64,000 nucleotides of DNA from Tardiphaga sp. 709 (GTDB taxonomy: Bacteria; Pseudomonadota; Alphaproteobacteria; Rhizobiales; Xanthobacteraceae), in NCBI RefSeq assembly GCF_032401055.1, contig NZ_CP135529.1, positions 3,284,501 to 3,348,500 of the forward strand, written 5' to 3'. The first letter of the stretch is position 1; each line of letters begins with the position of its first letter. The notes under the pieces were generated by a model. It worked only from the letters and a program-made list of their open reading frames with translations. It did no database searches and was not told where the DNA came from. Both the position numbers and the translations under genes were made by a program. Below, one piece after another: positions 49,454 to 63,940 of the stretch.

Positions 49454-49698
49454 ATCGTTTCCCCGTTTGTTTTTATGGCCGGCATTTGACGCTCCGAATC
49501 CGCGCCCGCGCAAGGCGTATTTTGAGTCAGCTCGACACGCAGCCCGCTGAATTTGCAGGTGAAGCGGCGAACTTTCCAAGCCACAATCGTCGGAGACTCC
49601 TGAGAATTACGATTAAGGAAGTTCTAAGACGCATCTGCGTATCGTGCAGCATTGTACCGCCATCCAAGCATGGCTCGCGATTGCTGGAGATCTTTTCC

Positions 49699-51387
49699 GT
49701 GAAGCTGCTCAATAACCTGCCGATTTCCGCCAAGCTTGGGCTTCTCGTCACCGTCACTCTGATCGGTCTCTGCCTCGCCGGCGTGCAGGCGACACGCCTC
49801 GTCAGCGCCGAGATGCGCAGCTCTCGCATGGAGCAGGTTCTCGCCATCGTCGAAACGGCGCGCAACATGGCGCTCGGTCTGCAGAAGCAGGTGACAGCCG
49901 GCGAGTTGACGAAGGATGCCGCGATCCAGGAATTCGTCAAGCGCGCCCGCACGATGACTTATGACAAGGGCAACGGTTACGTCTTCTCCTATGACATGAA
50001 CGGCATCGCGCTGGTGACGCCGGATCCGAAACAGTTCGGTACCAACCGGCTGGACGTCCCGACCAATGGCCGTGCGCTGACTCGCGAGTTGCGCGACGGC
50101 GTCGCCGCCAAGGGCGATGTCACGCTGTATTACGAATACATGAAGCCGGGTACGACCGAATTGATCCGCAAGTTCTCCTATGCGGTTGCCGTGCCCGACT
50201 GGAATCTGTTCGTCGGCACCGGCGCCTATCTCGACGATCTCGATGCGAAGCTGACGCCGATCATCTGGTCGCTGGCGACAGCGATCCTCGGTATCGCTGT
50301 TGTCGCCGGCCTGATCGCGTGGTTCATCGCCCGCAGCATCACGAGGCCGCTGAGCCAGCTCGGCACCCGCATGCGGGATCTCGCTGACGGTAAGCTGGAA
50401 GCCGAGATCCCCGGCGCCGGCCGTCACGACGAGATCGGTGCGATGGCTACGACGGTGCAGGTGTTCAAGGATAATGCGATCCGCATGCATGGCCTCGAGC
50501 AGGAAGAGGTCGCCGTCCAGCAGCGCGTCGCCGCCGAACGCAAGTCAGCGATGAACAGCCTTGCCGATGGCTTCGAGCAAAGCGTCAACGGCGTCGTGAA
50601 ATCGGTTGCCACGTCCGCGGCTGGAATGCAGGCTACCGCATCGTCCATGACCAACACCGCAAGCGAAACCACCGATCGCGTTGCCAGCGTCAGCATGGCG
50701 TCCGAGAAGGCGCTGAACAACGTGCAGACCGTTGCCGCCGCAGCGGAAGAACTGACCGCCTCCGTCGAGGAAATCTCGCGGCAGGTTGCGCAATCGACCG
50801 AGATCGCGCGGCAGGCCGTCGGCGAAGCAGACCGAACCAACGCAACGGTTCAGCTCCTGTCCGGCGCAGCCGAGAAGATCGGCGTTGTGGTGCAGTTGAT
50901 CGACACGATTGCAGCGCAGACCAACCTCCTGGCGCTCAATGCCACCATTGAGGCCGCCCGTGCGGGCGAAGCGGGACGCGGTTTCGCGGTCGTCGCCTCG
51001 GAGGTAAAGGCCCTGGCAACCCAGACAGCCAAGGCGACGGAGGAAATCTCGGCGCAGGTTGCCAGCATGCAGTCGACAACCGGCGATGCCGTCTCGGCGA
51101 TCGGCAATATCAGTGCGACCATCGAGAAGATGAGCGAGATTTCGATGGCGATCTCATCGGCCGTCGAGGAACAAGGCGCCGCGACCCGCGAAATCGCCCG
51201 CAACATTCAGGCGGCAGCCACCGGCTCCAGCGAAATCGCTTCCAATATCGGCAGCGTCAACGCGGCAGCCACCGCCACGGGACAGGCGGCCGGCCAGGTG
51301 CTCAACGGTGCGCGCGAGCTCGACGGACAGGCCAGCATGCTGCAATCGGCGGTGACGGACTTCCTGACCAAGGTTCGCGTGGCCTAA
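49699..51387 (+). CDS. Methyl-accepting chemotaxis protein with single Cache domain
   Basis: Chemoreceptor, 562 residues. A first membrane helix ([19 protein letters not shown]) is followed by a periplasmic sCache-2-type sensor (about 33-190, [35 protein letters not shown]), a second helix ([18 protein letters not shown]), HAMP ([20 protein letters not shown]) and a signalling domain with the hairpin tip [20 protein letters not shown]. The start is GTG 49699, with GGAG 9 bases upstream; the longer upstream frame does not look like coding sequence. Ligand unknown; Cache domains of this type often bind small organic acids. Confidence 0.93.
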
Positions 51388-51432
51388 ATCAGGCGACGGA
51401 CCGATGCTTCGATCGGATACGGGCCGTTCCGC

Positions 51433-52236
51433 TTACAGCGCGGGGCGGCCCGATGTCTTTTTGGCGCTGGATGCCAGCGTGGTCAGAGCTGCTTCATCCG
51501 CAACGGAACGCTGCGTAGCTGCCAGCAGCGGCGCATCGACATATTGCCGGATACCGTTCTGATCCATCACGAAGAGCGGCCGGGTGTTCTTCATGTTGAC
51601 GTCCTCGACCATCGCCATGCGACGGTTGTCGAGCATGAACCAGCGGCCATCGAGACGAGCGGCCGCAACGGCGTGATCCTCCTGGCGCAGCGTGTCGCGC
51701 AGGATCACGACCCGCAGATCCTCGGCCGCAACGCCGGCGGCACGTAATGCGGTGAATTTGGCGATGGCGTAGTCCTCGCAATCGCCGGCGCCCGTGGCGA
51801 ACAGTGCCAGCGGCGAACGCCAGACATCCGTTGCGCCATAGAGCACAAGATCATCGCCGGGCCGAACCGCCAGATTGATCGCGCGATTGACCTCACCCAT
51901 ACGGGCGCGACCGTCGCGCGCGCTGGCATCGCCAACGATATCCAGAAACTTTGCTGCCTCGGGCGAACAGCGGACGGGCGTCTCGGCACAAAGCTCGAGG
52001 GCAAGCTGCTCGTCGTCCTGCTCGCGTTCCACCCCGCGCCACTTGGCTTTGAGCTCGCCTTCCGGCAGCGCCGATGTGGAGAGGCCAAACGGCTCCGCAG
52101 GCCGGTCGACAGCGCTGATCGCCTGGTCAGGGAAGGCCGTTCCGGCCGTGAGATCCGTGGGTGCCGCGAAAATCGCCAGCCCCAAGGCCAGCACAGACGC
52201 GCAGCGCACCCGCGCAAAAGCAGAAGTCCACATCAT
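51433..52236 (-). CDS. LapG-like transglutaminase-fold cysteine protease (BTLCP family)
   Basis: Periplasmic cysteine protease, about 267 residues, with a signal peptide (CASVLALGLAIFAAPTDLTA). The triad is C153 (GAGDCEDYAIAK), H188 (RQEDHAVAAARL) and D203 (WFMLDNRR). This is the BTLCP/DUF920 fold of LapG, which clips secreted adhesins from the cell surface. It is divergent from a giant secreted adhesin and next to that adhesin's exporter, which is the setting expected for a LapG-type release enzyme. No LapD homologue is beside it. Whether it cuts this adhesin is inference. Confidence 0.87.
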   Translation of the reverse strand: MMWTSAFARVRCASVLALGLAIFAAPTDLTAGTAFPDQAISAVDRPAEPFGLSTSALPEGELKAKWRGVEREQDDEQLALELCAETPVRCSPEAAKFLDIVGDASARDGRARMGEVNRAINLAVRPGDDLVLYGATDVWRSPLALFATGAGDCEDYAIAKFTALRAAGVAAEDLRVVILRDTLRQEDHAVAAARLDGRWFMLDNRRMAMVEDVNMKNTRPLFVMDQNGIRQYVDAPLLAATQRSVADEAALTTLASSAKKTSGRPAL

Positions 52237-52668
52237 AGACGCCCCGTCTGTCCGGGCATCGGCAAGCTGGGCTGCTCGCACGTGACCGGATCATTTGTGG
52301 GGCCATCTTGAGGCGGGGGATTTTCGACGGGATTAAAAGGGGTTAGCCGGGTCGACGAAGTTCGCGGACAGGCTGAAAGGGGACTAACCGGCTTGGCTAC
52401 AATTTTATCGAAATCGCCAAATTAGAGGATTATATTACCTCATGCGTTTGTTCCCGCGCGTTGAGTTCCCTAAACGGGAGCACAGATTGAACTCGGAACA
52501 TCGTTAATGAAAATTTACTATATGGATCAAGGGCATCCAGATGATTTCACAAAGCAGCCGATAGCTTGAAAAATGATGCGCAGACGTCCACTATCGCATT
52601 GCACCCCGCGGTGGTATGCATGGCTCGCAAATTAGCTAATTAATAACCATAACCATGCGCGGTAGACA
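52237..52668. other. Divergent control region, protease / adhesin
   Basis: 432 bases between divergent genes, noticeably AT-richer than the surroundings in its second half (52410-52650). It contains AAATTAGAGGATTATATTACC at about 52420 and TTAATGAAAATTTACTATA at about 52505 as promoter-like patches. A short in-frame stop (52663-52665) forbids an earlier adhesin start. I see no operator that I can name. Confidence 0.5.
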
Positions 52669-55600
52669 TTGAACTACGCGGGTCCATTCGAATTTTCGCA
52701 ATCTGGCGATGCTCCGGCCGAACCAACGGCTGGTGGCGGCAGTATTGGCCATACGTTTTCCGCTCATACGGCCGGTTCCGCGATTGTCGTGCAGGATGCC
52801 AACCTGCTGTTCTCCGGCGACTACAAGCGCTCCGGCGTCGATCTCGTGCTGTCCAAGGACGGGCACGAACACGTCGTCTCCGACTATTTCAAGGGTTCGC
52901 TGCGCGCAGCACTGTCGTCGCCCGATGGCGCGCAGCTGTCCGGCGACCTCGTTACTGCCCTCGTCGGCGAAGTGCAGGTCGCCCAGCTCGGCGGCGGCGC
53001 CAATGCTGCCGCGCAAGTCATTGGCACCGTCAGCAAGCTAGCCGGCAGCGCAACTGCGATCCGCAATGGCGTCTCCGTGATGCTCAATGTCGGCGATCAG
53101 GTGCAGAAGGGCGACGTTGTCCAGGCCGGCGGGGACTCATCGCTGACCATGACTTTCATTGACGGCACCGTGTTCGGCCTCTCGGCCAACGCACGCATGG
53201 TGCTGAACGAGATGGTTTACGATCCCCAGGGATCGTCGAATTCATCTCTGCTCAGCCTCGTGCAGGGCACGATCACCTTCGTTGCCGGTGAAACTGCCAA
53301 GCATGGCAACATGCGCGTCGATACGCCGGTTGCCACGATGGGCATCCGCGGCACTGCGGTGCTGGTCGAGATCGGTTTCGAAGTGCCCGGACAGGGCGGC
53401 GCACCGCCGGTGAAATTCCAGGTTCTGGTCGAGCCCAACGGCGTGACCGGCTCTTATGTGCTGTATAGCAAGACGGGCGGCCAGGCGATCGGCACCGTCA
53501 ATGCGGCCGGTCAGGTCACCAGCGTGCTCGGCAATGGCGATACGTCCACAGGTGTCGCCGATCCGCTGACGCCGATCGCACGGGCGATCATTGAGCAGAC
53601 GCTGCAGACCTATTTTCCGAACTACGTTCCGAATGCCAATCCGCGCAGCGGACCCGGCGGCGGTTCATCTCCGGGCGATCCCAATTCCGGCACCAGTCCG
53701 GATCCCTTGAAATTCATTATTCCGGATTTTCTGCCGAACCAGCCCTACACCGTCCCGATCAAGCTGCAGGGCGACGGCTCCAACACGTCGCCGATCGACG
53801 TCACCTTCACGCGCTTCAATACCGCACCGATCATCACGGTGACGCCCGTCGTCGTCACGCTGCCGGTCAACCAGAACAGTTTCGATATCAGGGACCAGGT
53901 CCGGATCAACGATCCAGACATCGGTGACGTGGCAACGCCCTATGTGCCGGGCACCGCGCGCGTCATTTCGGCGAGCGGGCCAAGCGGCACGCCGGCCGCA
54001 CTCGATCTCAAGACGCTCATCGTAGTCGATCCGGCAACCGGCCATGTCTCCTATGATCCCGCCGCTTTCGCGTTCCTTGGCGCAGGACAGCAGGCCGTCT
54101 ACACCATCGGCTTCGACAGCCAGTCGGGACCGGACACGACCCATGAGACGCTGACCTTCACGGTCGATGGCACCAACGACGTGCCGGTCGTGGTGTCGCC
54201 GCTGACCGCTGCAGCGAGCCAGGATGATGGTGTCCAGAGTTTCAACCTGCTGGCCGGCGCCTCGGACGCTGATCTCGGCGAAACCGCGACTCTGACTGTC
54301 GGCAACGTCAAGTTCGCGCTCAACGGTGGCACCGCACAGAACGCTGCGCCGACCGGCGTGACGTTGACCGGCACGACGCTGCATGTCGATCCGAGCGCCT
54401 TTGCCTATCTCGGCCAAGGCCAGATCGCGACCATCACTGTCACCTACAACGTCATCGACGCTCATGGGGCGACCGTCGCGCAAACCGAGACGATTACGGT
54501 TACGGGCGTGAACGACCAGCCGACAATCGTATCGACGAACTTCACAGTGCCTCAGGGCGGAGAAGTCACGCTCGGCGCAACGAGCTTCACCATCAGTGAC
54601 CCGGATGTCGGCTCAGACTTCACATTTACCGTCAGCAATGTGAGCGGCGGCACGTTTGTGGTTGATTCGAATAATTTTCGTCTGTTCCGCGTTGCGGCTT
54701 TCGATGAGGGCGGCGGTCAGACGATCACCTTCACCATGGCCGACCTGATCGCCGGGCGCGTCCACTTCATCAGCGACGGCAGCGGTCCGCCATCCTTCAA
54801 CCTTCAGGTTGACGACGGCAGCGGGACGTCGAATAGCCAGAGCCCTGTTGAACTCCAGACTGTCGCATTCTCCGATCTGGCACCGGTTGTCAAAGGTCCG
54901 CTGACCTCTGCTGCAAACGAGGGTGACTGCGCGGTCACGGTTAATCTCCTGGAGTGCGCCCGCGACCCGGACGGTGGCACGCTGTCGATCGACAACGTCC
55001 ATTACACGGTCGGCAAGAACGATTCGACGGCGCTTCCGGTCGGATTTTCGCTCAACGGCGCGTCGCTGACCTACGATCCGGCCAACAAGGCTTTCGATCA
55101 TCTCGCCGCCGGCGAGAAGATGGTGGTGACTGTCAATTACGACATCTTAGATGGGCAGGGCGGCAAGACCCCCCAGACCGAAACCATCACCATCACCGGC
55201 ACCAATGACCGGCCGGTGATCAAGTCCGCTTCCTTTGCCCTGACTGAAGGTGGAATCACGATCCTGTCTGCCAGCAACATCGGCGTGAGCGATCCAGACA
55301 GCCAAGACTTCACCTTCAGCGTGTCGCAGGTCAGCCACGGTAAATTCCAGATCCTGACCGGCACCGGCTGGCGAGATACTTCCACATTCACCTCGGACGA
55401 TCTCGACTCGGGCCGCGTCCGGTTCGTGCATGACCGCAGTGAGTACGATGCGAGCTTCTCGATCAAGGCCGATGACGGCCAGAGCGAGCATAATGTCAGC
55501 AACACGTTCCGCAGCACCATCGAGATCGAGCACGTCAATGACGCGCCGAAGATGCTTGCAGCGCCGCTGCTGATTGCCGAAGGCGGCACAGTCGTCCTGA

Positions 55601-57630
55601 CCGTCCTGAATTTTCTCGTCAGCGATCCCGACGACAACAGCTTCACCTTCACGGTCTCCGACGTCGAACACGGCGTGTTCAAGATCAAGCAGGGAAACAG
55701 CTGGGTCGAGACCGATCACTTCACCACCGCAGACCTGAAGACCGGCCGGGTTATCTTCACGCATGATGGCGGCGGAATTCCGCCGTCATATAGCGTCACG
55801 GCCGACGACAACCACACCGATACACCCAATCACCTGAGCGATCCGGTCGACAGCACCGTGGTCTTCATCCCGGTCAACGACGCGCCGAAGATCGAAAGCG
55901 CGTACTTCAGCGTGGATCAGGGCGGCAGCGTCCTGCTCCACGTATCGAATTTCGGCATCTGCGATCCTGACAGCAGCAGCTTCAAATTCACCGTCTCCAA
56001 TGTCAAAGGCGGCCATTTCGAGACTTACAATTACAGCCACGGACGGTGGTCGTGGACGACCGATACGAGCTTCACGACGGCTGAGCTGAACGCCAACCAT
56101 GTTCGTTTCGCGCAGGACGGCAGCACGACGACGCCGAGCTTTACGATCAAGGCGGACGACGGCTCATCGTTCAATAGCACAAGCGCTCCATTCGGCGGCA
56201 GCAGTCTGCTCACGCATCCGGCGCCAGTCGCGAACGAGGATCACATCGTCAATGCGGCGCTGCCCGCCGGCGACGGCTGGCATCTCGATACCGACAATGG
56301 CCATTACTATCGGCTGGTGACGACGGCGATGAGCTGGGGCGTTGCAAAGATGGCGGCCCAGGCTGACGGCGCCTATCTCGCAACGATTACCAGCCAATCC
56401 GAACAGGATTTTGTCGGACCGCTCGCCGCCGGCTATCGCGCATGGCTTGGCGGCGTGAGCAATGATGATGCGCACGGCTCCGGACATTTCTACTGGGTGA
56501 CCGGTCCGGAGGCGGGCGAGCCTGTTAGCTACACGCACTGGGCCACACACGAGCCAAACGGCGGCGGCGGTGCGAATACGCAATACATCCATATCGAGGG
56601 CGTCGCCGACCGCCAAAATCTGGGATGGAACGACGAACCGGGCTTCGACAACGGACGCGTCTTTATCGAGGAAGTTGGCGGGTTGCCCGGACAGGTCGCA
56701 TTCCGCGAAGATACCGGGACGACGTTGACGACGCGACAGCTGCTGCAGAACGACACTGCCCTGAACCCAAGCTCGCTTTCGATAACCGCGGTCAGCGCGA
56801 CGAGCACCCACGGCGGAACGGTGACGCTCGACGGCAATATCATCACCTATCACCCGGCTGCGAATTTTAACGGCGCCGACAGTTTCACCTATACGCTGTT
56901 CGATGGCGTTGCGACCGCAACCGGCACCGTCAGCTTCGACGTTGCACCGGTCAATGACGCGCCAACGATCTCGACGGAAAACCTTTCGGTGTCGGAAAGC
57001 CCGTCCGGGCAGGTCACGCTCAAGGGGATTTCCGTCACGGATATCGATTCCACGAGCGGCAATTTCACGGTGACCACCGCTGACGGGTGGGGCCATGCGA
57101 CGCCCGCAGGAGGCGGCGCACAGGACTTTGCCGCTATCAACGCGGGCCTCACACAGGGCATCACCTATGCGCCCGGCAACTCGGCGCATCCAACCACCGA
57201 GACGGTGACGGTAATGGTCACCGATAATGCCGGCGCATCCGATTCAGTGAATTTCATCTTTGCGCTGTCGGACACAGCTCCGGTCGCGCTCAAGGGAACA
57301 GCCGGCAAGGACGTGATCCTCGCGACCGACGCGAGCGACACCATGACCGGCGGCGCCGGCAAGGACCAGTTCGTCTTCACTAGCAACCAAGGTCAGCATT
57401 CGATCACCGACTTCACGCAGGGCGAAGACCGGATCGATCTCCACATGCCGAATGCGCCGACGACTGGCAATACTCTGACGGCCTGGCTCGATGCGCACGC
57501 CACCCAGGTCGGTAATGATACGCTGATCCATCTCGATGCGCCCGACGCGGTGGTGCAGACCAACACGATTTTGCTTCAGGACGTGGTCAAAAGCCATCTC
57601 ACTGCAAACGACTTCATTCTGCATGCCTGA
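52669..57630 (+). CDS. Giant type-I-secreted adhesin: FecR-like N-terminus, cadherin/CSPG repeats, C-type lectin domain
   Basis: 1653 residues, acidic, starting at TTG (the only start after an in-frame TAG). Residues about 118-235: FecR-like domain (NVGDQVQKGDVVQAGGDSSL, GTITFVAGETAKHGNMRVDT, VATMGIRGTAVLVEI). About 323-345: Gly/Ser/Pro linker. About 380-610: VCBS/cadherin-like units. CSPG-like repeats begin near 617, 848, 958 and 1071. About 1202-1338: a C-type lectin domain (GHYYRLVTTAMSWGVAKMAA onward) with E1295-P-N1297 and W1320-N-D1322, the sugar/calcium residues. About 1350-1530: more cadherin-like folds. C-terminus: GGAGKDQFVF and LTANDFILHA, as in type I secretion signals. No N-terminal Sec signal. 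The exporter genes follow directly. It is probably a surface or released glycan-binding adhesin. Confidence 0.88.
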   Translation: MNYAGPFEFSQSGDAPAEPTAGGGSIGHTFSAHTAGSAIVVQDANLLFSGDYKRSGVDLVLSKDGHEHVVSDYFKGSLRAALSSPDGAQLSGDLVTALVGEVQVAQLGGGANAAAQVIGTVSKLAGSATAIRNGVSVMLNVGDQVQKGDVVQAGGDSSLTMTFIDGTVFGLSANARMVLNEMVYDPQGSSNSSLLSLVQGTITFVAGETAKHGNMRVDTPVATMGIRGTAVLVEIGFEVPGQGGAPPVKFQVLVEPNGVTGSYVLYSKTGGQAIGTVNAAGQVTSVLGNGDTSTGVADPLTPIARAIIEQTLQTYFPNYVPNANPRSGPGGGSSPGDPNSGTSPDPLKFIIPDFLPNQPYTVPIKLQGDGSNTSPIDVTFTRFNTAPIITVTPVVVTLPVNQNSFDIRDQVRINDPDIGDVATPYVPGTARVISASGPSGTPAALDLKTLIVVDPATGHVSYDPAAFAFLGAGQQAVYTIGFDSQSGPDTTHETLTFTVDGTNDVPVVVSPLTAAASQDDGVQSFNLLAGASDADLGETATLTVGNVKFALNGGTAQNAAPTGVTLTGTTLHVDPSAFAYLGQGQIATITVTYNVIDAHGATVAQTETITVTGVNDQPTIVSTNFTVPQGGEVTLGATSFTISDPDVGSDFTFTVSNVSGGTFVVDSNNFRLFRVAAFDEGGGQTITFTMADLIAGRVHFISDGSGPPSFNLQVDDGSGTSNSQSPVELQTVAFSDLAPVVKGPLTSAANEGDCAVTVNLLECARDPDGGTLSIDNVHYTVGKNDSTALPVGFSLNGASLTYDPANKAFDHLAAGEKMVVTVNYDILDGQGGKTPQTETITITGTNDRPVIKSASFALTEGGITILSASNIGVSDPDSQDFTFSVSQVSHGKFQILTGTGWRDTSTFTSDDLDSGRVRFVHDRSEYDASFSIKADDGQSEHNVSNTFRSTIEIEHVNDAPKMLAAPLLIAEGGTVVLTVLNFLVSDPDDNSFTFTVSDVEHGVFKIKQGNSWVETDHFTTADLKTGRVIFTHDGGGIPPSYSVTADDNHTDTPNHLSDPVDSTVVFIPVNDAPKIESAYFSVDQGGSVLLHVSNFGICDPDSSSFKFTVSNVKGGHFETYNYSHGRWSWTTDTSFTTAELNANHVRFAQDGSTTTPSFTIKADDGSSFNSTSAPFGGSSLLTHPAPVANEDHIVNAALPAGDGWHLDTDNGHYYRLVTTAMSWGVAKMAAQADGAYLATITSQSEQDFVGPLAAGYRAWLGGVSNDDAHGSGHFYWVTGPEAGEPVSYTHWATHEPNGGGGANTQYIHIEGVADRQNLGWNDEPGFDNGRVFIEEVGGLPGQVAFREDTGTTLTTRQLLQNDTALNPSSLSITAVSATSTHGGTVTLDGNIITYHPAANFNGADSFTYTLFDGVATATGTVSFDVAPVNDAPTISTENLSVSESPSGQVTLKGISVTDIDSTSGNFTVTTADGWGHATPAGGGAQDFAAINAGLTQGITYAPGNSAHPTTETVTVMVTDNAGASDSVNFIFALSDTAPVALKGTAGKDVILATDASDTMTGGAGKDQFVFTSNQGQHSITDFTQGEDRIDLHMPNAPTTGNTLTAWLDAHATQVGNDTLIHLDAPDAVVQTNTILLQDVVKSHLTANDFILHA

Positions 57631-57797
57631 TCCCGTGCGGAGGGATTTCGGCACTGGCCGACTGGTCCATTAACTGTCCCTAATGGACCACCTGCACAAA
57701 TCGTCCCGATGATGGCATAATGACCGTTAGATCAGGGCTCGGGTGGTATGCAGCACCTGACGACCATCGATCCATGCGATCCGCAAAAGGTTTGACG

Positions 57798-59555
57798 ATG
57801 CAGCGTGGACTGTCACGAACCTCCAGCCTGCCGGCGCGGAACGAGCTCGGCGATGCCTTGCGGGCCTGCCGCGGCGCCTTTCTGGGCGTCGGGCTGATGA
57901 GCTGCATGATCAATATCCTGTATCTGACCGGCTCGTTCTTCATGCTCGAGGTCTATGACCGCGTGCTGCCGAGCCGCAGCGTGCCGACCCTCGTCGGTCT
58001 CATCATACTGGCCGGCGGACTCTACGTGGCCCAAGGTATTCTCGACCTGCTGCGCGGTCGCATTCTGGTACGGATCGGCAGTTCGCTCGACGAGGCGCTG
58101 AGCCCTCGCGTGTTCCAAACCGTGGTGCGACTGCCCCTCCTCGCCGGCGGACACAACGAAGGCCTGCAGCCGCTGCGCGACCTCGATAATGTTCGCTCGT
58201 TCCTCTCCGGCATGGGGCCGAGCGCACTGTTCGACCTGCCCTGGCTGCCGCTCTATCTGGCGATCTGCTTTGCCTTCCATCCGATGATCGGCGTTACCGC
58301 GCTGGTCGGCGCAGTTCTGCTGGTGGGCCTGACGATCCTCACGGAAATCATGACCCGCGAACCTGCGCGCGAGGCCAACGGTCTTGCGGCACGCCGCAGC
58401 GGGATTGCCTCAGCCAGCCGGCGCAATGCCGAAGTCGTCGTCGCGATGGGCATGGCGGGGCGTCTGACGCAGCGCTGGCGCGAGGCCAACGAGACCTATC
58501 TCGCCGGGAACCAGCGCACCAGCGACGTGGCCGGCGGTCTCGGCGCCATCGCCAAGGTCATGCGCATGATCCTGCAATCAGCAGTGCTCGGCGTCGGCGC
58601 CTATCTCGTGATCAATCAGGAGGCCACCGCCGGCATCATCATCGCCGGCTCGATCCTCAGCGCCCGCGCGCTGGCGCCGGTCGACCTGGCGATCGCGCAC
58701 TGGAAGGGCTTTGTCACCGCCCGGCAGAGCTGGCATCGGCTCAACGGGCTGCTATACGCTCTGCCGGATCAGGCAGCTGTTACTCAGCTGCAGAACCCGT
58801 CGCAGAAACTGACCATCGAAGGCGTCAGCATCGCACCGCCGGGTGAGCAGAAGATCACGGTCAGCGACATCACTTTTGCACTCGCGGCCGGCAACGGCCT
58901 CGGCATCATCGGACCGTCGGGCTCCGGCAAGTCATCGCTGCTGCGCGCGCTGGTCGGCGTCTGGAAGCCGGTGCGCGGTCATGTCCGGCTCGACGCCGCG
59001 GCGCTCGACCAATGGGCACCGGACGATCTCGGCCGCCATATCGGCTATTTGCCTCAAGATGTCGAATTGTTCGCAGGCTCCATTGCCGACAATATCTGCC
59101 GTTTCGATCCCGATGCGAAGGATGACGACATCATCACCGCGGCAAGGCAGGCCGGCGTCCATGACCTCATCGTCGGCATGCGCGAGGGCTATGATACGCA
59201 GGTCGGCGATCACGGCGGCGTTCTATCCGCCGGCCAGGCGCAACGCATCGCGCTAGCACGCGCGCTTTACGGCGATCCGTTCCTGATCGTCCTCGACGAG
59301 CCGAATTCCAATCTCGACACCGAAGGCGATGAAGCGCTGACCAAGGCCGTGCGCGCAGCCCGTACGCGCGGCGCCATCGTCATCGTGGTTGCACACCGGC
59401 CGATCGGCATCGAAGGCGTCGACATGCTGCTAGTGCTAAAGGATGGTCGCATGCAGGCCTTTGGGCCGAAGGAGACCGTGCTGGGTCAGGTGCTGCAGCG
59501 CCCGGCAGCACAGCCGATCAAGATCGTCGCCGACGGTGGAGTAGCCAAGCCATGA
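57798..59555 (+). CDS. Type I secretion ABC transporter (PrtD/LapB-like)
   Basis: Inner-membrane exporter, 585 residues. Membrane domain (about 30-300) with LMSCMINILYLTGSFFMLEV, then an ABC domain with Walker A GIIGPSGSGKSSLLRAL, signature LSAGQAQRIALARAL, Walker B FLIVLDEPNSNLD and H-loop VVAHRP. There is no N-terminal C39 peptidase domain, as in the PrtD class that moves RTX-type substrates. It follows the adhesin by about 170 bases and overlaps the adaptor gene (ATGA). Start ATG 57798 is preferred (AAGG upstream); ATG 57720 and 57774 are alternatives. Confidence 0.93.
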   Translation: MQRGLSRTSSLPARNELGDALRACRGAFLGVGLMSCMINILYLTGSFFMLEVYDRVLPSRSVPTLVGLIILAGGLYVAQGILDLLRGRILVRIGSSLDEALSPRVFQTVVRLPLLAGGHNEGLQPLRDLDNVRSFLSGMGPSALFDLPWLPLYLAICFAFHPMIGVTALVGAVLLVGLTILTEIMTREPAREANGLAARRSGIASASRRNAEVVVAMGMAGRLTQRWREANETYLAGNQRTSDVAGGLGAIAKVMRMILQSAVLGVGAYLVINQEATAGIIIAGSILSARALAPVDLAIAHWKGFVTARQSWHRLNGLLYALPDQAAVTQLQNPSQKLTIEGVSIAPPGEQKITVSDITFALAAGNGLGIIGPSGSGKSSLLRALVGVWKPVRGHVRLDAAALDQWAPDDLGRHIGYLPQDVELFAGSIADNICRFDPDAKDDDIITAARQAGVHDLIVGMREGYDTQVGDHGGVLSAGQAQRIALARALYGDPFLIVLDEPNSNLDTEGDEALTKAVRAARTRGAIVIVVAHRPIGIEGVDMLLVLKDGRMQAFGPKETVLGQVLQRPAAQPIKIVADGGVAKP

Positions 59556-60859
59556 CTACGCCGCTGACAGGATCGCGCCGCTCGATCCGAATCCACCTCA
59601 TTATCGGCCTCGTCGTTGTGCTCGTGCTCGCAGGCGGTTTGGGCGGCTGGGCGTCGACGGCGCAGATCTCCGGCGCCCTGATCGCACCCGGTTCGGTGGT
59701 CGTGGATTCCAACGTCAAGAAAGTCCAGCACCCGACCGGTGGCGTCGTCGGCGAAGTGCGCGCCCGCGACGGCGACGTGGTGAAAGCCGGCGATGTCGTC
59801 GTGCGTCTCGACGACACGGTCACCAAGGCCGGCCTCGCCATCGTCACCAAGAACCTCAACGGATTGTGGGCGCGCGCAGCGCGGCTGGAAGCCGAGCAGC
59901 GCGGCGTCGATCGTATTACGTTTCCACCGCAGCTTATCGAGCAGATCGCGGATGACGACGTGAAGAATGTCATCGCCAGCGAAACGAAGCTGTTCAATGT
60001 GCGCTCGACCGGCCGCGTCGGCCAGAAGCAGCAGCTTCGCGAACGCATCGCGCAGCTCAACGAGGAGATCGCCGGCCTCACCGCGCAGGAAACTGCCAAG
60101 ACGCGCGAAATCGCGCTCGTGGAAAAGGAGCTGGTCGGCGTCCGCGGATTGTTCGATCAACAGCTGGTGCAGATCTCGCGCCTGACCATTCTGGAACGCG
60201 ACGCCGCGCGCCTCGCCGGCGAACGCGCACAGTTCATCGCCGCCCGCGCCCAGGCCAAGGGCAAGATCACCGAAATCGAGCTGCAGATTTTCCAGATCGA
60301 CAAGGACCTCGTCAGCGAAGTCTCCAAGGATCTGCGCGAGACCAATGACAAGATCGGCGAATTCGTCGAGCGCAAGGTCACAGCCGAGGACCAGCTGCGC
60401 CGCATCGACATTCGCGCGCCGCAGGACGGCATGGTGCTGCAGTCCACTGTGCATACGATCGGCGGCGTCATCACCGCAGGCGATGCCATCATGCTGATCG
60501 TGCCGCAGACCGACAATCTGTCGGTGGAAGCCCGGGTCAATCCGCAGGATATCGACAAGCTGCAGATCGGCCAGAAGACGCTGCTGCGCCTCTCCGCCTT
60601 CAACCAGCGCACCACGCCGGAGCTCAACGGCGCCGTCAGCCGCGTCTCGCCGGATACGACGACGGATCAACGCACAGGGCAGAGCTATTACACGATCCGG
60701 ATTTCGATGCCGGCATCGGAAGTCGCCAAGCTCGGCGATGTACGGCTGATCCCCGGCATGCCTGTCGAAGCCTTCGTGCAAACCGGCGACCGCACCATGC
60801 TGTCCTATCTCGCCAAGCCGCTGAGCGATCAATTGATGCGCGCCTTCCGCGAGAAATGA
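59552..60859 (+). CDS. Type I secretion periplasmic adaptor (HlyD family)
   Basis: Membrane-fusion protein linking the ABC exporter to an outer-membrane TolC-type channel, 435 residues. One membrane helix near the N-terminus (HLIIGLVVVLVLAGGLGGW), a lipoyl-type half (HPTGGVVGEVRARDGDVVKA), a long coiled coil (about 170-300, LRERIAQLNEEIAGLT) and a second lipoyl half (IDIRAPQDGMVLQSTVHTIG). It starts inside the exporter stop by a 4-base ATGA overlap. The TolC-like partner is not in the window. Confidence 0.94.
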   Translation: MTTPLTGSRRSIRIHLIIGLVVVLVLAGGLGGWASTAQISGALIAPGSVVVDSNVKKVQHPTGGVVGEVRARDGDVVKAGDVVVRLDDTVTKAGLAIVTKNLNGLWARAARLEAEQRGVDRITFPPQLIEQIADDDVKNVIASETKLFNVRSTGRVGQKQQLRERIAQLNEEIAGLTAQETAKTREIALVEKELVGVRGLFDQQLVQISRLTILERDAARLAGERAQFIAARAQAKGKITEIELQIFQIDKDLVSEVSKDLRETNDKIGEFVERKVTAEDQLRRIDIRAPQDGMVLQSTVHTIGGVITAGDAIMLIVPQTDNLSVEARVNPQDIDKLQIGQKTLLRLSAFNQRTTPELNGAVSRVSPDTTTDQRTGQSYYTIRISMPASEVAKLGDVRLIPGMPVEAFVQTGDRTMLSYLAKPLSDQLMRAFREK

Positions 60860-60869
60860 CCCGGCACCC

Positions 60870-63095
60870 ATGAAGCGCATGCGGCGAGTAAGACGGCTGG
60901 CGCAGAAGTTTGGACGGGCGCGGGCGTTTTGCGTCGTGTTGCTCCTGGGCCTCGCATTGCTGCGCATCGCAGATCCTTCGGCGATCGAGGAATTGCGCAT
61001 GCGGACTTTCGACACCTATCAGGTGATCGAGCCGCGGGTGAAAACGGCAAGACCTGTCGTGATCGTCGATATCGACGAAAAGAGTCTCGCAAAGGACGGT
61101 CAATGGCCGTGGCCGCGCACCCGCGTTGCCGAACTCGTCACCAAGCTGACACGCGCCGGTGCGGTGGTGATCGCGTTCGATATCGTGTTTCCCGAGCCGG
61201 ACCGAATGACGCCTGCGATTGCTGCAGATTTCTTCCAGGGACTGGATGAAGAGACACGGGCCAAGCTCCGCGCGCTTCCGAGCAATGACGCGATACTGGC
61301 ACAGGCGATAAAGCAGTCGCGCGTCGTATTGGGTGAATCGGGGCTGCCCAACCCGGTCAAGACGCTGGACAATTCGCTGCCGCTGACGGGACTCGCCATG
61401 CTGGGCGGCGATCCTGCCCCATACATGATCAATTTTCCGGGGCTGCTCCGCAACGTATCGACGCTGGAATCCGCTGCAGCCGGCCGCGGTCTGCTGACCA
61501 TTCGTACCGAGCGTGACGCGATCGTTCGGCGCGTGCCGATGCTGATGCAAGCTCAGGGCATGACGCTGCCATCGCTGAGTTTCGAAATGCTGCGCGTCGC
61601 CACAGGTACAGATACCATTCTGACCAGATCGGACGAGGCAGGTATTCGCAGCATCGCGGTCAAGGGCCTGCAAATTCCAACCGATCGCAACGGGCAGTTC
61701 TGGGTGCATTTCGCGAAGCACGATCCGTCGATATATATTCCGGCGTCCGACGTACTCGACGGCAGCTTCCCGCCCGGTGCCATTGCAGGCAAGCTGGTGT
61801 TGATCGGGACATCGTCGGTGGGATTGCTGGACGTCAAGACAACCCCGATTGATCCGGTGCTGCCGGGCGTCGAAGTGCACGCGCAGGTGCTGGAAAGCGC
61901 GTTGACACGGCAGGTGCTGTCGCAGCCGAACTATGCAATCGCCGTCGAGCTCGGCGTCGCGTTGCTGCTTGGTGTCGTGGTGATCTCGCTGGCACCCATG
62001 TTCGGTCCTGTGACGCTGGTCCTCATGGGGTCGGTTTTTGCCGCACTACTCGCCGGCACATCCTGGTACTTCTACACGAAACATCGCCTGCTGATCGACT
62101 TCACCTATCCCCTGTTCTCGACCACGCTGATCTATCTCACGCTCATCTTCAGCAATTTCGTGCGCGAGCAGGCGCAGCGCCGCCGCATCCGATCCGCTTT
62201 CAGTCAGTATCTGTCGCCGGCGCTGGTGGCTCAGCTCGCCCAGTCGCCGGAGAAACTGGTGCTTGGCGGCGAGGAACGCGAGATGACCATCATGTTCTCG
62301 GACGTACGCGGCTTCACGACCATCTCCGAGTCCTACAAGCACGATCCGCATGGCCTGACCACGCTGATGAACCGCTTCCTCACGCCGCTGACCAATGCGA
62401 TCCTCGATCGCAAGGGCACCATCGACAAATATATGGGCGACGCCATCATGGCGTTCTGGAATGCGCCGCTCGACGACGGTCAGCACCAGATCAATGCCTG
62501 CCACGCCGCCCTCGACATGCTGGAGCGCATCGACGCGCTGAACAAGCTGCGCCAGACCGAGGCCGAGAATGGCGGCCATGTCTACATCCCGATCAATGTC
62601 GGCATCGGCCTCAATACCGGCATTTGCGTCGTCGGCAATATGGGATCGGACCTTCGTTTCGACTATTCGGTGCTCGGCGACAGCGTCAATCTGGCCTCGC
62701 GTCTCGAAGGCCAGTCAAAGGAATACGGCTTTCCGATCATCGTGGGCTCGAAGACCGCACTCGCCGTCAGGGACAGGTTCGCCATTCTCGAACTCGATTT
62801 CATCATGGTGAAGGGGAAGAAAGAACCGGAAGTGATCTACGCCATCGCCGGACGTGAGGACGTGACGCATTCGGAACGCTTCCAGACGCTGCGCAACCTG
62901 ACCATCGAGATGCTGGCCTGCTATCGTAGTCGCGACTGGGACGACGCGTTGTACGCCATCGAGCGCGGTCGCAATTCCGATGTCGCGAATGCGCTCGAGA
63001 AGCTCTACGAGCTCTATGAGAAACGCATCCGCGCCTATCAGGAGACCCCGCCACCAGCGGACTGGAACGGCTCGTTTGCATTGCTGACGAAGTGA
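60870..63095 (+). CDS. CHASE2-class III adenylate/guanylate cyclase
   Basis: Membrane nucleotide cyclase, 741 residues. An N-terminal helix (AFCVVLLLGLALLRIADP), an extracytoplasmic CHASE2 sensor (about 45-340; VIVDIDEKSLAKDGQWPWPR, IAFDIVFPEPDRMTP), three more helices (about 348-430) and a class III cyclase domain (about 465-650). Catalytic residues appear intact: metal Asp residues in IMFSDVRGFTTISE and DKYMGDAIMAFWNAP, and transition-state N/R in LGDSVNLASRLEGQ. The gene is 10 bases after the adaptor gene, so it is probably in the secretion operon. Product (cAMP or cGMP) is not settled. Confidence 0.9.
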   Translation: MKRMRRVRRLAQKFGRARAFCVVLLLGLALLRIADPSAIEELRMRTFDTYQVIEPRVKTARPVVIVDIDEKSLAKDGQWPWPRTRVAELVTKLTRAGAVVIAFDIVFPEPDRMTPAIAADFFQGLDEETRAKLRALPSNDAILAQAIKQSRVVLGESGLPNPVKTLDNSLPLTGLAMLGGDPAPYMINFPGLLRNVSTLESAAAGRGLLTIRTERDAIVRRVPMLMQAQGMTLPSLSFEMLRVATGTDTILTRSDEAGIRSIAVKGLQIPTDRNGQFWVHFAKHDPSIYIPASDVLDGSFPPGAIAGKLVLIGTSSVGLLDVKTTPIDPVLPGVEVHAQVLESALTRQVLSQPNYAIAVELGVALLLGVVVISLAPMFGPVTLVLMGSVFAALLAGTSWYFYTKHRLLIDFTYPLFSTTLIYLTLIFSNFVREQAQRRRIRSAFSQYLSPALVAQLAQSPEKLVLGGEEREMTIMFSDVRGFTTISESYKHDPHGLTTLMNRFLTPLTNAILDRKGTIDKYMGDAIMAFWNAPLDDGQHQINACHAALDMLERIDALNKLRQTEAENGGHVYIPINVGIGLNTGICVVGNMGSDLRFDYSVLGDSVNLASRLEGQSKEYGFPIIVGSKTALAVRDRFAILELDFIMVKGKKEPEVIYAIAGREDVTHSERFQTLRNLTIEMLACYRSRDWDDALYAIERGRNSDVANALEKLYELYEKRIRAYQETPPPADWNGSFALLTK

Positions 63096-63744: not shown

Positions 63745-63940
63745 CGTCATTCCGGGGCGCGAGGAGACGCCGAAGGCGGCGTATCGCGAACCCGGAATCC
63801 CGACCTGTTTTGCGCTGAACACTCCCGGATTCCGGGTTCACACTTCAGCGGCTTCGCCGCTTTCGTGTGCCCCGGAATGACAGTGGAAACTCAGGGTTCG
63901 CGCTCTGCCGGCTTCGCCGGCGACGCGCCCCGGAATGACG
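63745..63940. repeat. Compound dispersed repeat (CGTCATTCCGGGGCGCG type)
   Basis: At least three copies of a CATTCCGGGG / CCCCGGAATGAC inverted unit, with internal hairpins AGCGGCTTCGCCGCT and GCCGGCTTCGCCGGC. Such CATTCCGGGG blocks are a multi-copy intergenic repeat in this bacterial group. It lies at the right edge of the window, with no gene visible on its far side. Confidence 0.75.

Follow-up and report, generated by a model that had tools for sequence, protein, structure and literature searches.

The stretch of DNA analysed here (the window) comprises 64,000 nucleotides (nt) of Tardiphaga sp. 709 (NZ_CP135529.1, 3,284,501-3,348,500) and carries at 51433..63095 a locus that combines a type I-secreted adhesin and its export machinery with a nucleotidyl cyclase and a protease. 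The relation between this adhesin and this cyclase is the subject of our analysis.

Organization of the locus

The protease gene (51433..52281, minus strand) encodes a BTLCP (peptidase C93) protein of 282 amino acids (aa; PF06035, 1.8e-17). Beyond a divergent control region (52282..52668), four genes follow on the plus strand, encoding a cadherin-repeat adhesin (52669..57630; 1653 aa, TTG start), a PrtD-type type I secretion ABC exporter (57720..59555), a HlyD-type periplasmic adaptor (59552..60859) and a CHASE2-class III nucleotidyl cyclase (60870..63095; 741 aa). A sequence-only reading had named these five genes with their order, coordinates and strands, and all five open reading frames (ORFs) and families agree with ours. 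Two starts probably lie further inside their ORFs: Met17 is the first invariant residue of the protease, which places its probable start at ~52233, and alignments of PrtD relatives begin at about residue 22-23, which probably moves the exporter start to ~57777. The closest named locus, L024 from Tardiphaga robiniae Vaf-07, shares 95% identity in BTLCP, 99% in PrtD, 97% in HlyD and 83% in the cyclase.

Since the PrtD and HlyD genes share 4 bases and the cyclase begins 10 bases past HlyD, the exporter and cyclase genes are very probably co-transcribed. Between adhesin and PrtD lies a gap of 89 bases, or ~146 with the later PrtD start, and a scan of this gap found no terminator-like site.

Family assignments of the exporter and adaptor are clear. 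The exporter scores 732.7 bits against TIGR01842 (PrtD type; cut-off 510), and the adaptor 387.4 bits against TIGR01843 (HlyD type; cut-off 208.7). Against the LssB subfamily, which we take to stand for the LapB-type exporters presumably used by LapA-type adhesins, the exporter reaches 366 bits, under the cut-off of 693, and therefore falls outside the LapB type.

The cyclase combines a CHASE2 domain (60942-61985; PF05226, 1.4e-57) with a cyclase domain (62277-62843; Guanylate_cyc PF00211, 1.5e-19). In 82 of 82 sequences, D478, K520, D524, N607 and R611 are conserved without change; we take these residues to comprise the metal, substrate-lysine and transition-state positions. As its closest solved structures are mostly adenylate cyclases, cyclic AMP (cAMP) is the likelier product. 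Hydropathy predicts membrane segments at residues 13-31 and 356-374, plus a weak third segment at 89-107, and places most of CHASE2 between them, which fits a periplasmic sensor.

The adhesin and its periplasmic foot

According to Pfam, the body of the adhesin consists of Cadherin/Big repeats followed by a serralysin-type C terminus; TTG is the commonest first codon among its relatives too. By far the best conserved part is the N-terminal ~316 residues: mean column identity is 58% over residues 1-350 (39 sequences) and 27% over 16 full-length sequences. A module at 52999..53616 (residues ~111-316) includes a Pfam FecR domain at residues 150-233 (53116-53367). This domain had escaped the sequence-only reading. 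FecR (PF04773) was found in 39 of 39 adhesin N-termini and in 16 of the 16 full-length adhesins scanned. The retention-module model NF033682 (retention_LapA) matches the same 39 N-termini weakly at E<=0.01, the window adhesin scoring 25.5 bits, below the curated cut-off of 50. A profile built from the 39 N-termini matches PDB 5ix9 (1.3e-5) over residues 111-183; the entry is titled Antifreeze protein, and we take it to be the part of the Marinomonas primoryensis adhesin that anchors it to the membrane. On the strength of the NF033682, PF04773 and 5ix9 matches, the foot of the adhesin can be assigned, by sequence, both to the retention modules and to the FecR domains. A plasmid search with the adhesin N-terminus returned zero matches.

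The same protein had been called a lectin adhesin. Its C-type lectin match (56326..56637) is borderline, with 23.2 bits against a cut-off of 22.6, and Lectin_C occurs in 1 of the 16 adhesins scanned (the ConA-like Laminin_G_3 in 2 of 16), which rules out lectin adhesin as the identity of the family.

Conservation of the adhesin-cyclase unit

Gene order was compared in named relatives by scanning genome contigs with the cyclase; 580 stretches were confirmed, and the 80 best of them were kept. By record title these come mostly from Bradyrhizobium, with Tardiphaga, Rhodopseudomonas, Afipia, several metagenome-assembled genomes whose names stop at higher ranks and one Frankia. Upstream of the cyclase, in the 63 loci with at least 9 kb of sequence on that side, the adhesin was found in 61, its FecR part in 57 and the divergent BTLCP gene in 51; in the six loci with a FecR adhesin and no BTLCP, the adhesin starts at most 660 bases from the edge of the sequence or runs off it. 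PrtD and HlyD lie directly 5' of the cyclase in 11 of the 80 loci and PrtD lies 3' of it in 8, while L097 and L098 contain the cyclase without a recognised adhesin across more than 9 kb.

Co-occurrence was counted in a sample of 61 genomes of the family. The limits for the adhesin (at least 140 bits) and the cyclase (850 bits) lie at clear score gaps; the limits of 165 bits for BTLCP and 750 bits for PrtD were chosen after seeing the lists and not at score gaps. Related genomes count as independent in every p value given here. The adhesin module is present in 16 of the 61 genomes, and every one of these 16 has a cyclase of at least 890 bits, compared with 2 of the 45 others (p=7.5e-13); when every cyclase at E<=1e-150 is admitted, the counts are 16/16 and 9/45 (p=1.0e-8). 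PrtD at 750 bits or more accompanies the adhesin in 14 of 16 genomes and occurs in 3 of the 45 others (p=3.2e-9), or in 7 of 45 with every match listed (p=4.6e-7). For BTLCP at 165 bits or more the counts are 12/16 and 5/45 (p=4.3e-6), and 12/16 and 9/45 with every match listed (p=1.4e-4). Since the cyclase is found in all adhesin genomes and the protease in 12 of 16, it is the cyclase rather than the protease that constantly accompanies the adhesin. The idea that the cyclase goes with the adhesin but not with the exporter is ruled out, as 13 of 18 genomes of this sample have PrtD next to the cyclase.

Adhesin and cyclase share a contig, at most ~11 kb apart, in 10 of the 16 genomes; in the other six they lie on different contigs, five of these being assemblies of 110-680 contigs and the sixth (G316) having an adhesin that runs into the contig end. 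In G286, G317 and G320 the protease gene adjoins the cyclase rather than the adhesin. BTLCP is absent at E<=1e-17 from G325 (one contig) and G322, both of which retain the adhesin, PrtD, HlyD and the cyclase.

Outside the family, a locus from an alphaproteobacterium of another order (L239:3208-13183) contains a FecR-RTX adhesin, PrtD, HlyD and a CHASE2 cyclase, all in the same orientation; PrtD follows the adhesin after 2 bases, and the cyclase follows HlyD after 3. The BTLCP profile has no match in its 19 kb. Identities to the window are 41% for the adhesin (matched N-terminal part), 31% for PrtD, 29% for HlyD and 43% for the cyclase. That the same order is kept despite such divergence argues, in this single case, for selection on the four-gene unit; no such cluster was seen in the inspected parts of the other CHASE2 loci examined outside the family. 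The proposal that the cyclase belongs with the adhesin and its exporter is thus borne out by gene order in relatives, by the strict co-occurrence and by this distant cluster. The comparison of gene order across genomes, which the sequence-only reading had called for, confirms the linkage of the cyclase, and the family sample shows the LapG-like protease to be the less constant element.

FecR domains beside CHASE2 receptors

The locus places a CHASE2 sensor with an intact output domain and a FecR-domain protein in one unit, and this neighbourhood is more general. From 99 genomes with a CHASE2 match in a phylum sample, 36 were picked to spread over families, and 69 listed CHASE2 genes were used. 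A Pfam FecR match lies within 5 kb of 36 of these 69 genes, with 0.59 expected by random placement, and 27 of the 36 chosen genomes have FecR near CHASE2. The pair in the window, 7.8 kb apart, falls outside these 36 cases. With a FecR profile of our own, an ORF was found in 24 of 37 CHASE2 regions (6-9 kb) and in 1 of 20 arbitrarily placed 18-kb regions; this profile was built mostly from loci later tested, so the Pfam count is the cleaner test. The only other CHASE2 match in the genome of Tardiphaga sp. 709 (L200:2847-5295, at ~4.99 Mb) is a cyclase that overlaps a preceding FecR gene of 173 aa.

The neighbourhood has already been noticed in print, in parts. CHASE2 cyclases of Campylobacterota are described, in the passages cited here, as clustering with a FecR outer-membrane protein (PMC9239204), and a LysM-FecR protein stands beside a CHASE2 kinase in an excerpt of PMC5192318. 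In Sinorhizobium meliloti, the FecR gene SMc02177 has the locus number next to CyaD1, SMc02176 (part of PMC5498481), and excerpts of PMC7529298 and PMC13001267 state that the outer-membrane protein NsrA is required for signalling via CyaK and CyaD1/D2.

The anchored adhesin as a possible input

We propose that this is a type I adhesin system with its own cyclic-nucleotide readout, in which the FecR foot of the adhesin serves as the periplasmic input of the CHASE2 cyclase, from the outside in. We hold this at about an even chance. A parallel is S. meliloti, whose CHASE2 adenylate cyclases are acted on by NsrA in the outer membrane. Judging from the families involved, PrtD and HlyD, with an outer-membrane channel encoded elsewhere, would export the adhesin C-terminus first, and the N-terminal retention module would remain in the periplasm and anchor it. 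The cyclase would then read the FecR foot of the retained adhesin, whether displayed, engaged or cut, and alter the level of a cyclic nucleotide, probably cAMP. The divergent BTLCP, often but not always present, would probably cut close to this module, which would free the adhesin and reset the signal, and in many relatives cAMP could feed back through a CRP-like site between the divergent genes. In this manner the cell may report its attachment state to the cytoplasm through the anchored foot. More tentatively, the adhesin might be a receptor in the full sense, its FecR foot being the ligand of the CHASE2 cyclase, its display, load or proteolytic release being reported as cAMP, and cAMP-CRP acting back on the divergent protease/adhesin promoter.

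Control region and the direction of the signal

Feedback by cAMP is suggested by the gap between the protease and adhesin genes. TGTnA-N6-TCACA or its reverse complement, a CRP-like palindrome, occurs in this gap in 27 of 42 loci, and 25 of the 27 sites lie 316-342 bases before the adhesin start, mostly at about -329. Elsewhere in those loci the palindrome was found twice in 872 kb, and in simulated sequences the mean was 0.03 loci; with one mismatch allowed, the number rises to 31 of the 42 gaps. The arms carry on average 1.91 bits of information, compared with 0.95 for the spacer and 0.81 for the flanks; the 42 gaps are related sequences and not independent events, and part of the arm conservation stems from the selection of matches. 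The genome of Tardiphaga sp. 709 has 18 cNMP-binding domains.

These sites and binding domains, together with the conserved linkage of the cyclase to exporter and adhesin, would also suit an inside-out arrangement, with CHASE2 responding directly to a cue from the environment and the cyclic nucleotide in turn regulating how the adhesin is expressed or cut. The sequence-only reading had taken this direction, with an environmental CHASE2 signal governing adhesion. It is conceivable, and we consider it unlikely: it does not explain why a FecR domain, a frequent neighbour of CHASE2 receptors, should be part of the adhesin itself, it supposes a direct ligand of CHASE2, and a cytoplasmic cyclic nucleotide should be unable to gate a periplasmic protease directly. 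Because the adhesin has a FecR domain and FecR-CHASE2 pairing is general, the adhesin is more likely an input to the cyclase than its target.

The protease and the search for a c-di-GMP receptor

By sequence, the protease is a LapG relative with an intact triad. Its only structure matches are PDB 4u65 (2.9e-12) and 4fgo (9.8e-9), which we take to be LapG proteins, and it scores 65.6 bits against the LapG model NF045674, far under the equivalog cut-off of 320. The triad C168-H203-D218 and the flanking D167 and E169, at calcium-ligand positions, are invariant in 34 BTLCP sequences. The same Asp-Cys-Glu arrangement is given for DvhG in the part of PMC13090378 cited here. BTLCP-related matches occur in 135 of 150 genomes of the order; among the matches listed, those above 100 bits are confined to the family of Tardiphaga sp. 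709, whose own genome has three C93 genes.

The protease probably trims or releases the adhesin. The published LapG cut consensus is [T/A/P]AAG, as quoted in the literature excerpts used here. Within residues 1-600, [T/A/P]AA[G/V] occurs in 12 of 56 adhesins against a shuffle mean of 13.9 (standard deviation 2.9), and in the window adhesin not at all. A consensus no commoner than in shuffles rules out canonical LapG cleavage. The nearest conserved element to a LapG site, V277-x-x-A280-G281, was set aside, having no conserved alanine before A280. Nor need a BTLCP have an adhesin as substrate, by analogy with Caulobacter HvyA, a BTLCP described in part of PMC4241560 as controlling capsulation. 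Both the unconserved site and the 12 of 16 genomes alter the LapG part of the sequence-only reading.

Two other BTLCP loci were met. In the same genome (L199:6743-17001, at ~5.79 Mb), a type I exporter and HlyD adaptor are followed by a BTLCP; a large ORF there (850 aa covered) has no Pfam match, and none of the EAL matches of the genome lies there. In a relative of the family (G111, L197:8167-10740), the BTLCP gene precedes one for a small FecR protein and one for a TPR protein, with no adhesin in 10.8 kb.

The absence of LapD noted by the sequence-only reading stands within the reach of one domain model: a search of the genome with PF16448 (LapD_MoxY_N) at E<=0.1 gave one match, which lies in a HAMP-HisKA_3-HATPase histidine kinase (L004), and this candidate was rejected. 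A LapD or GGDEF-EAL partner elsewhere in control of the protease had been named as one observation that would overturn that reading. Seventeen EAL matches were found; no LapD domain appeared in the 6 of these 17 proteins scanned with Pfam, some of them partial at the locus edge. The EAL gene nearest the locus (L020, ~4.9 kb past the cyclase) encodes a GGDEF-EAL protein with a sub-threshold PAS match and no predicted membrane segments, and another protein (L021) has an EAL domain that lacks the motif searched. One protein (L017) has a LapD-like layout, transmembrane (TM)-periplasmic-TM-GGDEF-EAL with an intact GGDEF, so that a replacement receptor for cyclic di-GMP (c-di-GMP), analogous to DvhD in Desulfovibrio, is possible. 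With no LapD of standard domain found and the LapG consensus unconserved, the locus is, as far as its genes can tell, not a standard Lap system.

A Lap-type arrangement in which an unrecognised c-di-GMP receptor holds the BTLCP, and the cyclase is an independent neighbour, would accord with the intact triad, the retention module, the EAL proteins including the LapD-like one, and the precedent of a replaced LapD in Desulfovibrio reported in part of PMC13090378. We judge it improbable, since the only PF16448 match is a histidine kinase, the cut consensus is unconserved, and G325 and G322 keep adhesin and cyclase without the protease.

Weighing the proposal

Several observations weigh against the adhesin foot as input of the cyclase. 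The FecR and retention-module models cover the same residues, so that FecR in the adhesin may merely name the anchoring fold. FecR is absent within 5 kb of 33 of the 69 listed CHASE2 genes, and among the 28 FecR frames of the 36 genomes that reach 1000 aa or more, a hand count gives five with a listed CHASE2 gene no further than 9 kb away; one of these five (G095) is a FecR-TPR protein, and another of them (G107) is equally long. In the family sample, G295 and G298 combine cyclase and exporter, with no adhesin recognised in either. The promoter-like site at 57693-57721, immediately 5' of PrtD, means that the adhesin may be transcribed apart from exporter and cyclase. As for feedback, the CRP-like site is absent from 11 of the 42 gaps (the window, L024, L025, L028, L034, L036-L039, L056 and L090), and the Clr consensus is found in 0 of 42 at up to one mismatch, which rules out a Clr-type operator. 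The unconserved cut consensus belongs here as well. Finally, domains, catalytic residues, co-occurrence and gene order are observed; the FecR-CHASE2 contact, the cleavage, the activity of the cyclase with its cAMP product, and the feedback are inferred.

The first of these points, and the giant FecR proteins that mostly have no listed CHASE2 neighbour, would fit an adhesin and a cyclase merely co-expressed in one surface programme, with no physical coupling and FecR as anchoring fold, which we think has little chance of being right given the strict co-occurrence in the family, the same four-gene unit in another order, and a FecR-CHASE2 pairing that also holds for small, separate FecR proteins.

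Neighbouring features

Convergent with the BTLCP gene lies a gene for a methyl-accepting chemotaxis protein with an sCache_2 sensor (49486-51387), and a terminator-like hairpin at 51420-51452 stands between the two genes or at their ends. Just 3' of the cyclase, at 63746-63939, CCCGGAATGAC occurs three times on both strands together (0.07 expected) and resembles a REP-like palindromic element.

Comparison with known systems

If the adhesin foot is indeed read by the cyclase, the locus would mirror the Lap switch: that switch works from the inside out through c-di-GMP, and this one would work from the outside in through cAMP. CHASE2 would then gain a defined protein ligand. The signals recognised by CHASE2 domains were called unknown in 2016 (in an excerpt of PMC5192318), and CHASE2 cyclases of S. 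meliloti have since been tied to an outer-membrane protein (part of PMC13001267). Our results suggest that retention-module adhesins are perhaps wired to cAMP, beyond c-di-GMP alone. As the conserved pair of adhesin and CHASE2 cyclase occurs in culturable soil bacteria, the question is experimentally testable. In a literature search over a limited set of papers, CHASE2 was never combined with type I secretion, nor with adenylate cyclase and adhesin together.

The closest parallel is LapA/LapG/LapD of Pseudomonas fluorescens, with FrhA/CraA of Vibrio cholerae, which shares a type I adhesin with an N-terminal retention module and a BTLCP with triad and calcium-ligand positions. Unlike that system, the locus has no recognised LapD and no conserved LapG cut consensus, its exporter is of the PrtD type and not of the LssB subfamily, its module types as FecR, and a CHASE2 cyclase is part of the unit. 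In DvhA/DvhG/DvhD of Desulfovibrio vulgaris, as far as the source excerpts go, a BTLCP and an adhesin likewise occur with the role of LapD held by an unrelated protein; DvhD is a dCache-HD-GYP protein binding c-di-GMP, whereas the candidate here is a CHASE2 class III cyclase.

On the side of the cyclase, CyaD1/CyaD2/CyaK with NsrA and SMc02177 of S. meliloti offer CHASE2 class III cyclases downstream of an outer-membrane protein and, by locus number, a FecR-domain gene beside cyaD1. Their outer-membrane part is a predicted beta-barrel, and a type I adhesin or BTLCP is not described in the passages cited. Similarly, in the excerpts on the Burkholderia BiofilmReg operon and the Campylobacterota CHASE2 cyclase cluster, a FecR-domain protein adjoins a CHASE2 receptor, in Burkholderia with a role in biofilm. 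There FecR is joined to LysM or lies in an outer-membrane protein, the output of BiofilmReg is a histidine kinase, and those excerpts do not describe type I secretion. HvyA of Caulobacter, finally, is likewise a periplasmic BTLCP of an alphaproteobacterium, but according to the part of its report cited here it acts on capsulation and is encoded in a capsule export locus.

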